Shown: positions 1 through 59,636 of the stretch, in pieces
Layout of the letters: every line of letters begins with the position of its first letter
Numbering within the stretch: the first letter of the stretch is position 1
Source: Rhodobacter sp. SGA-6-6
GTDB lineage: Bacteria; Pseudomonadota; Alphaproteobacteria; Rhodobacterales; Rhodobacteraceae
Reading direction: 5' to 3'
Assembly (NCBI RefSeq): GCF_011043545.1
Contig: NZ_JAAKGP010000003.1
Location: 248,001-312,000 of the forward strand
Length of the DNA: 64,000 nucleotides
Translations under genes and position numbers: made by a program
Notes under the pieces: generated by a model
The model's database searches: none
Seen by the model: the letters and a program-made list of their open reading frames with translations, nothing else
Told to the model about the DNA's origin: nothing

Positions 1-56
1 GTTGATGCGATGCGCACGGGCGGGGGCGAGGCAATGCCTCGCCTTTCTCCGCCCGG
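1..56 (+). repeat. Composite intergenic repeat, copy 1 (right end only)
   Basis: These bases match the last quarter of the 210-bp repeat seen in full at 59424-59636, starting with the same GTTGATGCGATGCGCACG string. They hold the terminal palindrome, a GCGAGGCAATGCCTCGC core nested inside CGGGCGG...CCGCCCG arms. The rest of the copy lies outside the window. No gene is needed to explain this stretch. Confidence 0.85.
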
Positions 57-7944: not shown

Positions 7945-8154
7945 TGGCGAAGGCGCGTGCCTTCGCCACAGTGCGCCATTTCAACCAGGACCGGCCGGGC
8001 CCTCAAGGCCCGGCCAGCGCCCGCCCCGCCCTCGGCGGGCGCTTCTCGCCCGCCGGGTCGGGCGCTGGCCTCTCGGGGTCTCGGGCTGTCAGCGTTTCCG
8101 GGTGATAAGTTTCGCACGGGCGGGGCGAGGCAATGCCTCGCCTGTTCCCGCCCG
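7945..8154 (+). repeat. Composite intergenic repeat, copy 2 (full)
   Basis: Full 210-bp copy between the divergent kpsS and ribE genes. Modules in order: P1, a TGGCGAAGGC/GCCTTCGCCA hairpin; P2, GGCCGGGCC (7993-8001) pairing with GGCCCGGCC (8007-8015); P3, a CGCCCGCC/GGCGGGCG region; and P4, a GCGAGGCAATGCCTCGC palindrome inside CGGGCGG/CCGCCCG arms. The rest of the 452-bp gap (7799-7944 and 8155-8250) shows no gene and nothing resembling an FMN riboswitch. Confidence 0.9.
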
Positions 8155-27849: not shown

Positions 27850-27928
27850 GGCGGGGTGAACCCCGCCCTACGCCGGCCCCCATCCGCCGGGCGACCGGGA
27901 ACTGCCGTAGGGCGGGGTTCACCCCGCC
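27850..27928. repeat. Inverted-repeat module M before composite repeat copy 3
   Basis: GGCGGGGTGAACCCCGCC plus CTACG (27850-27872) is matched by its inverted copy at 27906-27928 with a 33-nt spacer. Each arm is itself palindromic. The same module precedes copies 7 and 8. Just before it, GCCATTTCCC (27821-27830) pairs with GGGAAATGGC (27843-27852). Nothing coding is seen in the 476-bp gap 27724-28199. Confidence 0.85.
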
Positions 27929-27943
27929 GCTCAACGGTGTTCT

Positions 27944-28126
27944 TGGCGAAGGCGTGTGCCTTCGCCACAGCGCAACGGTTCAGTCTGGACCGGCCGGGCC
28001 CCAAAGGCCCGGCCAGCGCCCGCCGGGTCGGGCGCTGGCCTCCCGGGGTCTCGTGCCACCACCGTCTCCGGTTGATCCAGTTCGCACGGGCGGGGGCGAG
28101 GCAATGCCTCGCCTTCTCCCGCCCGG
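27944..28126 (+). repeat. Composite intergenic repeat, copy 3 (183 bp, central deletion)
   Basis: This copy has P1 (GGCGAAGGC/GCCTTCGCC), P2 (GGCCGGGCC/GGCCCGGCC) and the terminal P4 palindrome. It lacks about 26 bp of the central P3 region present in other copies. It lies between the convergent SIMPL and metY genes. Confidence 0.9.
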
Positions 28127-30767: not shown

Positions 30768-30976
30768 TGGCGAAGGCCATCGCCTTCGCCACAGCGCACC
30801 GTTTCAATCGGGACCGGCCGGGTGCCCCAAGCACCCGGCCAGCGCCCGCCCGCCCCTCGGCGGGCGCTTCTCGCCGCCCGGTCGGCGCTGGCCTCTCGGG
30901 GTCTCGGGCTGACAGTCTCCGGTTGACATGCTGCGCACGGGCGGGGCGAGGCAGTGCCTCGCCTGTTCCCGCCCGG
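30768..30976 (+). repeat. Composite intergenic repeat, copy 4 (full)
   Basis: A 209-bp copy with P1-P4. P2 differs from copies 2, 3, 6 and 8: GGCCGGGTGC (30816-30825) pairs with GCACCCGGCC (30831-30840), so both arms changed together and the stem is kept. P4 is the perfect GCGAGGCAGTGCCTCGC form. The 297-bp gap between convergent genes (30748-31044) holds nothing else. Confidence 0.9.
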
Positions 30977-32593: not shown

Positions 32594-32619
32594 GGTGAAG
32601 CACATCGTCCCGCCATCCG

Positions 32620-32671
32620 GCCGGTCCCGGTTGACATGGTGCGATGTGGCGAAGGCGATGGCCTTCGCCAG
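32620..32671 (+). repeat. Composite intergenic repeat, copy 5 (fragment)
   Basis: A remnant in rearranged order. CCGGTTGACATGGTGCGATG, like the linker between P3 and P4, is followed by a P1 hairpin (TGGCGAAGGC/GCCTTCGCCA, 32647-32670). It lies between the convergent glycosyltransferase and DDAH genes. Confidence 0.75.
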
Positions 32672-39303: not shown

Positions 39304-39512
39304 TGGCGAAGGCCGTCGCCTTCGCCACGGTGCACCATGTCAACCTGACCGGCCGGGCCCTCAAGGCCCGGCCAGCGCCCGCCCCGCCCTCGGCGGGCGC
39401 TTCTCGCCCGCCGGGTCGGGCGCTGGCCTCTCGGGTAGGTGCTGCCACCGTCTCCGGTTGATCCGCCGCGCACAGGCGGGGGCGAGGCAGTGCCTCGCCT
39501 TCTCCCGCCCGG
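39304..39512 (+). repeat. Composite intergenic repeat, copy 6 (full)
   Basis: A 209-bp copy with all four palindromic modules and the common P2 form (GGCCGGGCC/GGCCCGGCC). It lies between two genes on the same strand (Ada-domain gene and VOC gene). The remaining parts of the gap 39268-39617 show nothing else. Confidence 0.9.
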
Positions 39513-57807: not shown

Positions 57808-57873
57808 GGCGGGGTGAACCCCGCCCTACGCTGACCTGACGAGCCCACGCTGTAGGGCGGGGTTCACCCCGCC
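57808..57873. repeat. Inverted-repeat module M before composite repeat copy 7
   Basis: GGCGGGGTGAACCCCGCC plus CTAC (57808-57829) and its inverted copy (57852-57873) around a 22-nt spacer. It begins one base after the enolase-superfamily stop codon, so it is transcribed with that gene. Confidence 0.85.
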
Positions 57874-57889: not shown

Positions 57890-58101
57890 TGGCGAAGGCC
57901 ATCGCCTTCGCCATAGCGGAACATATCCCCATGGACCGGCCGGGTGCCCAACGCACCCGGCCAGCGCCCGCCCCGCCCTCGGCGGGCGCTTCTCGCCCGC
58001 CGGGTCGGGCGCTGGTCTATGTGGTCTCGGGCTGACAGGTCTCCGGTTGAACCCTCGCGCACGGGCGGGGGCGAGGCAGTGCCGCGCCTCATCCCGCCCG
58101 G
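57890..58101 (+). repeat. Composite intergenic repeat, copy 7 (full)
   Basis: A 212-bp copy. P2 carries the covaried stem GGCCGGGTGC (57938-57947) with GCACCCGGCC (57953-57962), as in copy 4. P4 has one arm changed (GCAGTGCCGCGCCTC). With module M it fills most of the 379-bp gap 57807-58185 between two genes on the same strand. Confidence 0.9.
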
Positions 58102-59327: not shown

Positions 59328-59408
59328 GGCGGGGTGAACCCCGCCCTACGCCGGGCCCCACCCGCCGGCCCGGTCGGGATGGTCCCGTAGGGCGGGGTTC
59401 ACCCCGCC
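59328..59408. repeat. Inverted-repeat module M before composite repeat copy 8
   Basis: GGCGGGGTGAACCCCGCC plus CTACG (59328-59350) and its inverted copy (59386-59408), with a 35-nt spacer that contains a smaller CCGGGC/GCCCGG pairing. Confidence 0.85.
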
Positions 59409-59423: not shown

Positions 59424-59636
59424 TGGCGAAGGCCATCGCCTTCGCCACGGCGCAACCGTTCCCCATGGACCGGCCGGGGCCCAAAGGCCCGGCCAGCGCC
59501 CGCCCCGCCCATGGCGGGCGCTACTCGCCCGCCATGGGCGGGCGCTGGCCTCTCGGGGTCTTGGGCTGCCAGCGTCTCCGGTTGATGCGATGCGCACGGG
59601 CGGGGGCGAGGCAGTGCCTCGCCTTCTCCCGCCCGG
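59424..59636 (+). repeat. Composite intergenic repeat, copy 8 (full)
   Basis: A 213-bp copy with P1-P4. In P3 both arms changed from the usual GCCCTCGGCGGG form to a CCATGG-centred form (GCCCATGGCGGGCG and CGCCCGCCATGGGC), which keeps and extends the pairing. The last 56 bp are nearly identical to copy 1. The gap 59311-59664 between convergent genes holds nothing else. Confidence 0.9.

Follow-up and report, generated by a model that had tools for sequence, protein, structure and literature searches.

A BIME-like repeat of four hairpins that follows the inferred replication fork in one Rhodobacteraceae genome

In a 64,000-nt stretch of a Rhodobacteraceae genome (hereafter the window, contig C23:248001-312000 of the 4.29-Mb, 67-contig genome G000), a non-coding element of 210 bases recurs between genes, and nearly all of its copies read in the same direction, which raises the question of what kind of element it is and what gives it its direction. 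Alignment and profile search over the window resolved the element into four hairpins, or palindromic modules, in a fixed order. Full composite copies carrying hairpins 1–4 lie on the plus strand at 7945–8154 (nhmmer, profile positions 1–211, E = 1.2e-54), 27944–28126 (E = 2.0e-41; 29 aligned positions are missing from hairpin 3), 30768–30976 (E = 1.5e-48), 39304–39512 (E = 3.8e-52), 57890–58101 (E = 3.4e-49) and 59424–59636 (E = 5.3e-56), the last of which served as the query in a BLAST search against its own genome. The first-pass annotation had counted six full and two partial copies, all in one orientation. Its modules and their order were reproduced by alignment and nhmmer, and the partial copy at 1–56 (plus strand) was identified in the profile search as belonging to one more full copy, the seventh (G000:C23:247846-248055), which is split by the window edge and has its right end here. 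The other partial copy, at 32617–32670, consists of hairpin 1, the following spacer and the start of hairpin 2 (nhmmer, profile positions 1–54, E = 2.9e-7) and lies on the minus strand, which can be read because the spacer and the start of hairpin 2 adjoin hairpin 1, itself a palindrome without direction; therefore seven of the eight copies in the window, not all eight, are co-oriented. Within the window, palindrome 1 was found 7 times against 0.01 expected, and palindrome 4 gave 14 matches, both strands counted, against 0.03 expected.

In the copy at 59424–59636 (all modules on the plus strand), hairpin 1 (59424–59447) has a 10-bp stem, TGGCGAAGGC/GCCTTCGCCA, closed by a 4-nt loop. A spacer of some 22 nt leads on to hairpin 2 (59472–59494, GGCCGGG...CCCGGCC), and next comes hairpin 3 (59495–59550), which is the core that the family conserves (AGCGCCCGCC / GGCGGGCGCT / CGCCCGCC / CGGGCGCTGGCC) and whose tracts allow two alternative pairings. 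After a second spacer of about 43 nt comes hairpin 4 (59597–59635), with the outer stem CGGGCGGG, the inner stem GGCGAGGCA/TGCCTCGCC and an unpaired TTYT. Over 138 copies, stem sites of hairpins 1 and 4 were mostly 95–99% conserved and many loop and spacer sites were down at 35–60%; the mean pairwise identity between copies was 0.961 for stems versus 0.639 for loops and spacers. The 5′ flank of hairpin 1 showed a weak TTCC[T/A] preference (T52% C72% C74% T55%, 138 copies), and no target-site duplication was seen (observed 1.78 versus 1.89 in shuffled data, sd 0.10). Pairing of arms across the entire element ('stem A', with GCGCAACGGTTCAACC on the left and GGTTGAACCGTTGCGC on the right) was rejected, since the arms paired no better within than between copies (z = −1.9, 111 copies); the consensus arms look complementary, and shuffling the letters inside the left arm lowered the pairing (4.17 versus 5.01). 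An outer flank stem was weak (z = 2.1) and is not claimed.

RNAalifold on the 138 copies gave no useful consensus because the palindromes hardly vary within one genome, and cross-species alignments were used instead. For hairpin 1 (11 sequences from eight or more genomes), 98.2% of cells were paired, and changes on both sides were observed in 5 of 10 pairs, which was equalled by 1 of 500 shuffles; its covariation score of 0.409 was equalled by none of 500. For the inner stem of hairpin 4 (12 sequences), 98.1% of cells were paired, both-side changes in 4 of 9 pairs were equalled by 41 of 500 shuffles, and the covariation score of 0.411 by none of 500, while further pair types did not exceed the shuffles (410/500). 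The outer stem of hairpin 4, whose 3′ arm is out of register, was left uncounted, and the alignments contain several sequences per genome in places and thus not only independent ones. Compensated pairs were also present within G000, in hairpins 2 and 3 (columns 72–80, 99–127 and 105–109). In these alignments, the structure of the element is kept by compensatory change across species at hairpins 1 and 4. G-U pairs were scarce between species (1 of 110 cells in hairpin 1, 4 of 108 in the inner stem of hairpin 4), a scarcity that would fit a palindrome or hairpin of DNA better than one of RNA.

The whole genome holds roughly 160–225 copies. Counted as forward/reverse matches, the hairpin-1 pattern occurred 99/130 times (2/2 for the reversed control), the exact core 66/91 times (0/0) and a looser core pattern 73/124 times (0/0), whereas a pattern for hairpins 3–4 with three mismatches allowed gave 182/213 against 30/27 in the control and hence includes chance matches. 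A profile search over 41% of G000, a sample enriched for copies in that it joins alternate stretches of the large contigs with loci from the element searches, returned 146 matches, 138 of them of full length at a stricter cut or 139 at a looser one. None of these 139 was overlapped by more than 80 nt by a called gene, in keeping with the initial view that the element encodes no protein; the genes were called by a codon-usage script, whose calls are approximate, with some genes missed or misplaced.

Beyond this genome, a covariance-model search for the core found it in 32 of 198 genomes of the family (198 genera; up to 22 candidates were scored in each genome, so the per-genome counts are lower bounds), and a strict core pattern matched 105 of 394 genomes, some of the single matches being due to chance, as the reversed control also matched 16 of 394. 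The richest genomes by the strict pattern were G000 (197), G310 (122), G283 (40), G121 (27), G241 (22) and G257 (19). Among 12 congeners, exact cores numbered 0–2 (two in G011, one in G006, none in the other ten), so that G000 alone is rich within its genus. The full order of hairpins 1-2-3-4 was found in two congeners (G011 and G010) and six other genera (G024, G214, G062, G283, G241 and G310), and stem sequences differ among several of the genomes that share it. The site of the copy at 7945 is empty in the relatives' loci L090 and L088, and that of C23:247846 in L090; conversely, the G000 site corresponding to the G011 copy (L053) lacks the element. The sole exact core of G006 shares its gene boundary and orientation with the G000 copy C12:402331 and is flanked by no G000-like hairpins 1 and 4. 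With both shared and empty sites in relatives, a part of the sites may be of old date and the rest younger.

To define direction genome-wide, the fork direction of each contig was inferred from GC skew, from the GGGNAGGG octamer, which we take to be a KOPS-like marker, and from third-position skew, compared between genes of either strand; the leading strand is G-rich. GC skew of single stretches was noisy (several stretches of C1 were positive), and third-position skew had the same sign as octamer polarity on 8 of 8 contigs. Polarity was weak on C1 (octamer p = 0.15, third-position skew p = 0.18), and on C65 the skew was weak (p = 0.12) and the octamer clear (p = 7e-13). Among the matches listed, 127 of 161 on eight contigs were oriented with the inferred fork (p = 8e-14), leaving a minority orientation of about 21%; this set omits 12 places found by a short pattern only, C65 101297 (likely a chance match) and contigs without inferred polarity. 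Agreement was similar for full copies on contigs with inferred polarity (95/121), for places other than profile matches in the sampled sequence (32/40, p = 2e-4, among the matches listed) and for the five contigs significant by third-position skew, C44 aside (77/96, among the matches listed). A test that makes no use of polarity found 113 of 153 adjacent copies on one strand (p = 3e-9, again among the matches listed). The first-pass annotation had suspected a link to replication direction and named random genome-wide orientation as the finding that would speak against it; such randomness was not found in G000, and the link stood there with one contig as an exception. On C44, 6 copies were oriented with and 9 against the fork among the matches listed, which differs from the rest (p = 6e-4).

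C44 combines a strong octamer bias and a clear gene skew with mixed orientation of the element; the last six copies listed there all run against the fork, and hardly any copy precedes ~139 kb among the matches listed.

In G283, which belongs to another genus and has this architecture too, the fork was followed by 17 of the 27 copies listed for three contigs (p = 0.25), a weak, non-significant trend; 13 of its 40 copies lie on contigs outside the 27, and polarity was taken from the octamer, with mixed GC skew on C24. The two genomes did not differ at the 5% level (p = 0.09). Fork polarity is thus well supported for G000 and not established for the family, and in G000 the copies are oriented as though DNA replication were the route by which the element spreads or is maintained. 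A precedent for such polarity is possibly offered by Pseudomonas fluorescens SBW25, in which tandem arrays of REPs are reported to run forward at around 2 Mbp and in reverse at around 4 Mbp (PMC3116915).

GC skew itself was rejected as the cause of the orientation, as the top strand of the consensus is C-rich (skew −0.084), opposite to the G-rich strand that the element follows. Folded as DNA, the two strands are nearly equal (−91.7 and −93.0 kcal/mol), and therefore the asymmetry must stem from recognition of sequence or from selection. Of the 58 variable sequence columns, none is claimed to go with orientation (the largest z was 3.0), and stem differences averaged 2.40 in copies against the fork versus 1.88 in those with it, which was not significant (p = 0.33).

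Gene direction was also rejected as the cause. For 121 full copies, the proportion oriented with the fork was 29/34 where both neighbouring genes run with the fork, 24/34 where both run against it, 34/44 in convergent gaps and 8/9 in divergent gaps. The bias thus has the same sign in all four arrangements, which bears out the earlier claim that orientation is independent of the neighbouring genes, and the two tandem classes did not differ significantly (p = 0.24). Placement, on the other hand, does depend on the genes: the element avoids divergent (promoter) gaps (9/121 copies versus 224/774 in the background) and favours convergent ones (44/121 versus 121/774). This preference for gene ends is what would be expected if the hairpins were terminators or mRNA-end structures whose orientation follows the genes, and GTAG-type REPs have likewise been described as preferring convergent and unidirectional gaps (PMC3733652). 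We nevertheless regard such a transcription element as very improbable, since 24 of the 34 copies whose neighbours both oppose replication still follow the fork, G-U pairs are rare between species, and Rfam 15 gave no match at the gathering threshold in the window. A known structured RNA family was likewise rejected for six loci of relatives (E up to 1); next to the G214 copy (L306:1345-1412), one of these six loci, a sub-threshold match to the sRNA BjrC68 was recorded (23.7 of 39 bits).

What, then, ties the element to the fork? A strand read 5′ to 3′ in the direction of fork movement is the template for lagging-strand synthesis. Copies have presumably spread between genes, and the strand reading from hairpin 1 to hairpin 4 would be the lagging-strand template, single-stranded there and able to fold. 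A putative enzyme recognising the folded strand could cut or copy the element at this point, and the element could then be inserted into single-stranded DNA at other forks; such insertion would in turn produce the orientation bias. The insertion sequences IS608 and ISDra2 are described as acting on the lagging-strand template through their folded ends (PMC6006769), and the same rule applied to this element would yield the observed polarity. Tentatively, and at somewhat less than an even chance, we favour reading the element as a composite, non-autonomous DNA repeat of BIME-like type that probably uses single-stranded DNA of the lagging-strand template for its copying or insertion and would be recognised there in folded form. 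Against this reading, no mobilising gene, target duplication or recent copy was found (the best pair is 94.7% identical), and the strong constraint on the stems could mean a function in place rather than mobility. The mixed orientation on C44, the non-significant trend in G283 and its small linkage excess at long distances, the nearly equal folding of the two strands and the two hairpin 4 measures that do not clearly exceed shuffles speak against it as well.

One rival is that of selected polar sites, each copy binding a putative protein that reads direction (a nucleoid organiser, a translocase or a repair factor), with selection preserving orientation and palindromes locus by locus in a KOPS/FtsK-like manner. 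The contrast between stems (96% identical) and spacers (64%), the compensatory changes in the stems and the match of the majority orientation to the excess of the GGGNAGGG octamer on 7 of 8 contigs (all but C44; the octamer excess is not significant on C1) all speak for it. Three observations weaken it, and we consider it unlikely, though it keeps an appreciable share of the probability: the 12 congeners with 0–2 exact cores indicate that there is no general requirement for the element, the strong octamer bias of C44 is not matched by the element, and decay is not significantly greater in copies that oppose the fork.

Near-identical copies are absent (median nearest neighbour 90%), and loop types of several bases (CATC and GCGT in hairpin 1, for example) recur in many copies nearly independently of the types of the other modules; the strongest link between modules, that of spacer B and the bulge of hairpin 4, reached z 3.2 versus z 20.8 inside spacer A. 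In G000, the excess mutual information between variable sites fell from 0.24 bits at 1–3 nt to 0.014 at 9–20 nt and 0.001–0.002 beyond 50 nt, so that linkage is nearly gone past ~20 nt; G310 (27 copies) was alike, and G283 (32 copies) kept a small long-distance excess (0.02–0.03 bits). The copies behave like a shuffled population. We read this loss of linkage as exchange of short segments between copies, which would keep the palindromes alike and shuffle loops and spacers; parallel mutation among a few tolerated states might produce it as well. The loss of linkage also makes the concerted evolution of short repeats measurable.

A bolder form of the favoured reading, which we find unlikely and put forward as speculation, would make the copies an intragenomic 'sexual' population, in which some 200 copies of 210 nt, bound to the direction of replication, spread at forks via single-stranded DNA with the help of an enzyme other than the known Y1/RAYT kind and swap segments of 10–20 nt until sites are unlinked, the palindromes being kept by selection.

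Another possibility is random insertion, after which minority-facing copies recombined with others within a replichore, made inversions and vanished. Copies do appear to exchange sequence, and co-orientation within a replichore would spare intra-replichore inversions. We judge such selection against inverted pairs improbable, however, because about 21% of copies among the matches listed face the minority way with no significant extra decay, and the conserved tracts are short, about 20 nt.

Inverted pairs of GTAG-type REPs, with the GTAG ends face to face, occur at 27850–27928, 57808–57873 and 59328–59408 and end 15, 16 and 15 nt, respectively, before the copies at 27944, 57890 and 59424. In the sampled sequence (41% of G000) there are 67 GTAG-type REPs in total; 32 of 138 copies have one no more than 18 nt beyond their ends, and in 29 of 34 such matches the GTAG end faces away from the element. 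These neighbours would suit a classical REP/REPIN mobilised by a RAYT still present in the genome. The Y1_Tnp domain (PF01797), however, gave 0 matches in G000, with a control search positive in 5 of 14 known genomes; when 14 genomes were tested, 13 lacked it, G310 and G241 with their many copies among them. The RAYT partner proposed in the first-pass annotation was accordingly rejected. Neither GTAG nor CGTC was found at the hairpin foot: hairpin 1 is preceded by the weak TTCC[T/A], and GTAG belongs to the separate adjacent REPs. We give a classical REP/REPIN very little credence. The sole borderline Y1_Tnp-like frame in the 14 genomes is in G283 (L384, G283:C28:59645-59878; 22.7 bits).

Among known systems, the element resembles the BIME/REP/REPIN repeats described in Enterobacteria and Pseudomonas, which are high-copy, mosaic, intergenic composite palindromes that avoid promoter gaps (PMC2817692, PMC6006769), and some of its copies stand beside GTAG-type REPs. 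As in a BIME, palindromic modules form a mosaic with variable spacers and many intergenic copies. A BIME, however, alternately inverts the same REP unit, whereas the present element arranges four different palindromes in one fixed order; its own ends carry no GTAG, G000 has no Y1 transposase, and its replication polarity is strong. It is best filed as a BIME/REP-like kind that fails two defining features of the REP/RAYT system. With the IS200/IS605 family (IS608, ISDra2) it shares hairpins near both ends (1 and 4) and an orientation such as insertion into the lagging-strand template would give (PMC6006769), a fork bias seen in G000 (127/161 among the matches listed) except on C44 and not significant in G283 (17/27). 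It differs from that family in having no TnpA (Y1) gene, a length of only ~210 nt and the internal hairpins 2 and 3. IS200/IS605 elements have a fixed target tetranucleotide on the left; the four bases before hairpin 1 of the present element are T52% C72% C74% T55%. In being GC-rich and having three alternately complementary tracts, as in hairpin 3, it is also like the BoxC or intrastrand-triplex repeats, which have another sequence; the E. coli motifs are given as 34–36 nt, and the sections describing them mention no replication polarity (PMC4666352).

It is short, non-coding, multi-copy and sharp-ended, with empty sites in relatives. These are traits of MITEs and of RU/ERIC-type repeats, but unlike MITEs it has neither a target-site duplication nor a copy-specific pairing of left and right arms. 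The rhizobial intergenic mosaic elements (RIME) are another alphaproteobacterial palindromic intergenic mosaic, to which the element is likened by description only. Searches of open-access literature listed nothing that describes this repeat, and carriage by a plasmid or phage was rejected, one full copy having no match in the collections of either. With a fork polarity that is strong in one genome, copies that are numerous in few species and rare in congeners, and no RAYT, the family offers a clean test bed for asking whether BIME-like repeats spread via single-stranded DNA at forks, and it suggests that Rhodobacteraceae have a mobilising enzyme yet to be discovered.

Several minor observations concern the wider family of cores and copies. 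A second type of core, CATGCGCCCG...GGCGGGCGCATTC...GCGCCCACCCGG...CGCATGCC, occurs in other Rhodobacteraceae (L309, L314, L315, L317, L320 and L324) with no obvious hairpins 1 and 4. In G121, where 27 core matches were counted, the ten that are listed agree at every matched base, unlike in other species; this uniformity suggests a recent spread there. G310 contains tandem pairs about 240 nt apart (L342, L346, L432, L441 and L451), and many of its copies sit close to the ends of contigs, so that their number may be underestimated in the assembly. Truncated copies are present in G000 at C6:51754-51800, C65:203719-203756, C1:212086-212168 and C23:498445-498516; those on C6 and C65 lie within ~100 nt of full copies, and the truncated copies are perhaps remnants of former tandem pairs. 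One IMG/VR contig matches the core pattern (L385:10436-10472). Finally, a gene in the window encodes a lumazine-binding domain of the riboflavin synthase type, the nearest relatives of which, in a search that may omit records of G000 itself, are in Fuscovulum, Gemmobacter and other Rhodobacteraceae (best amino acid identity 83%).
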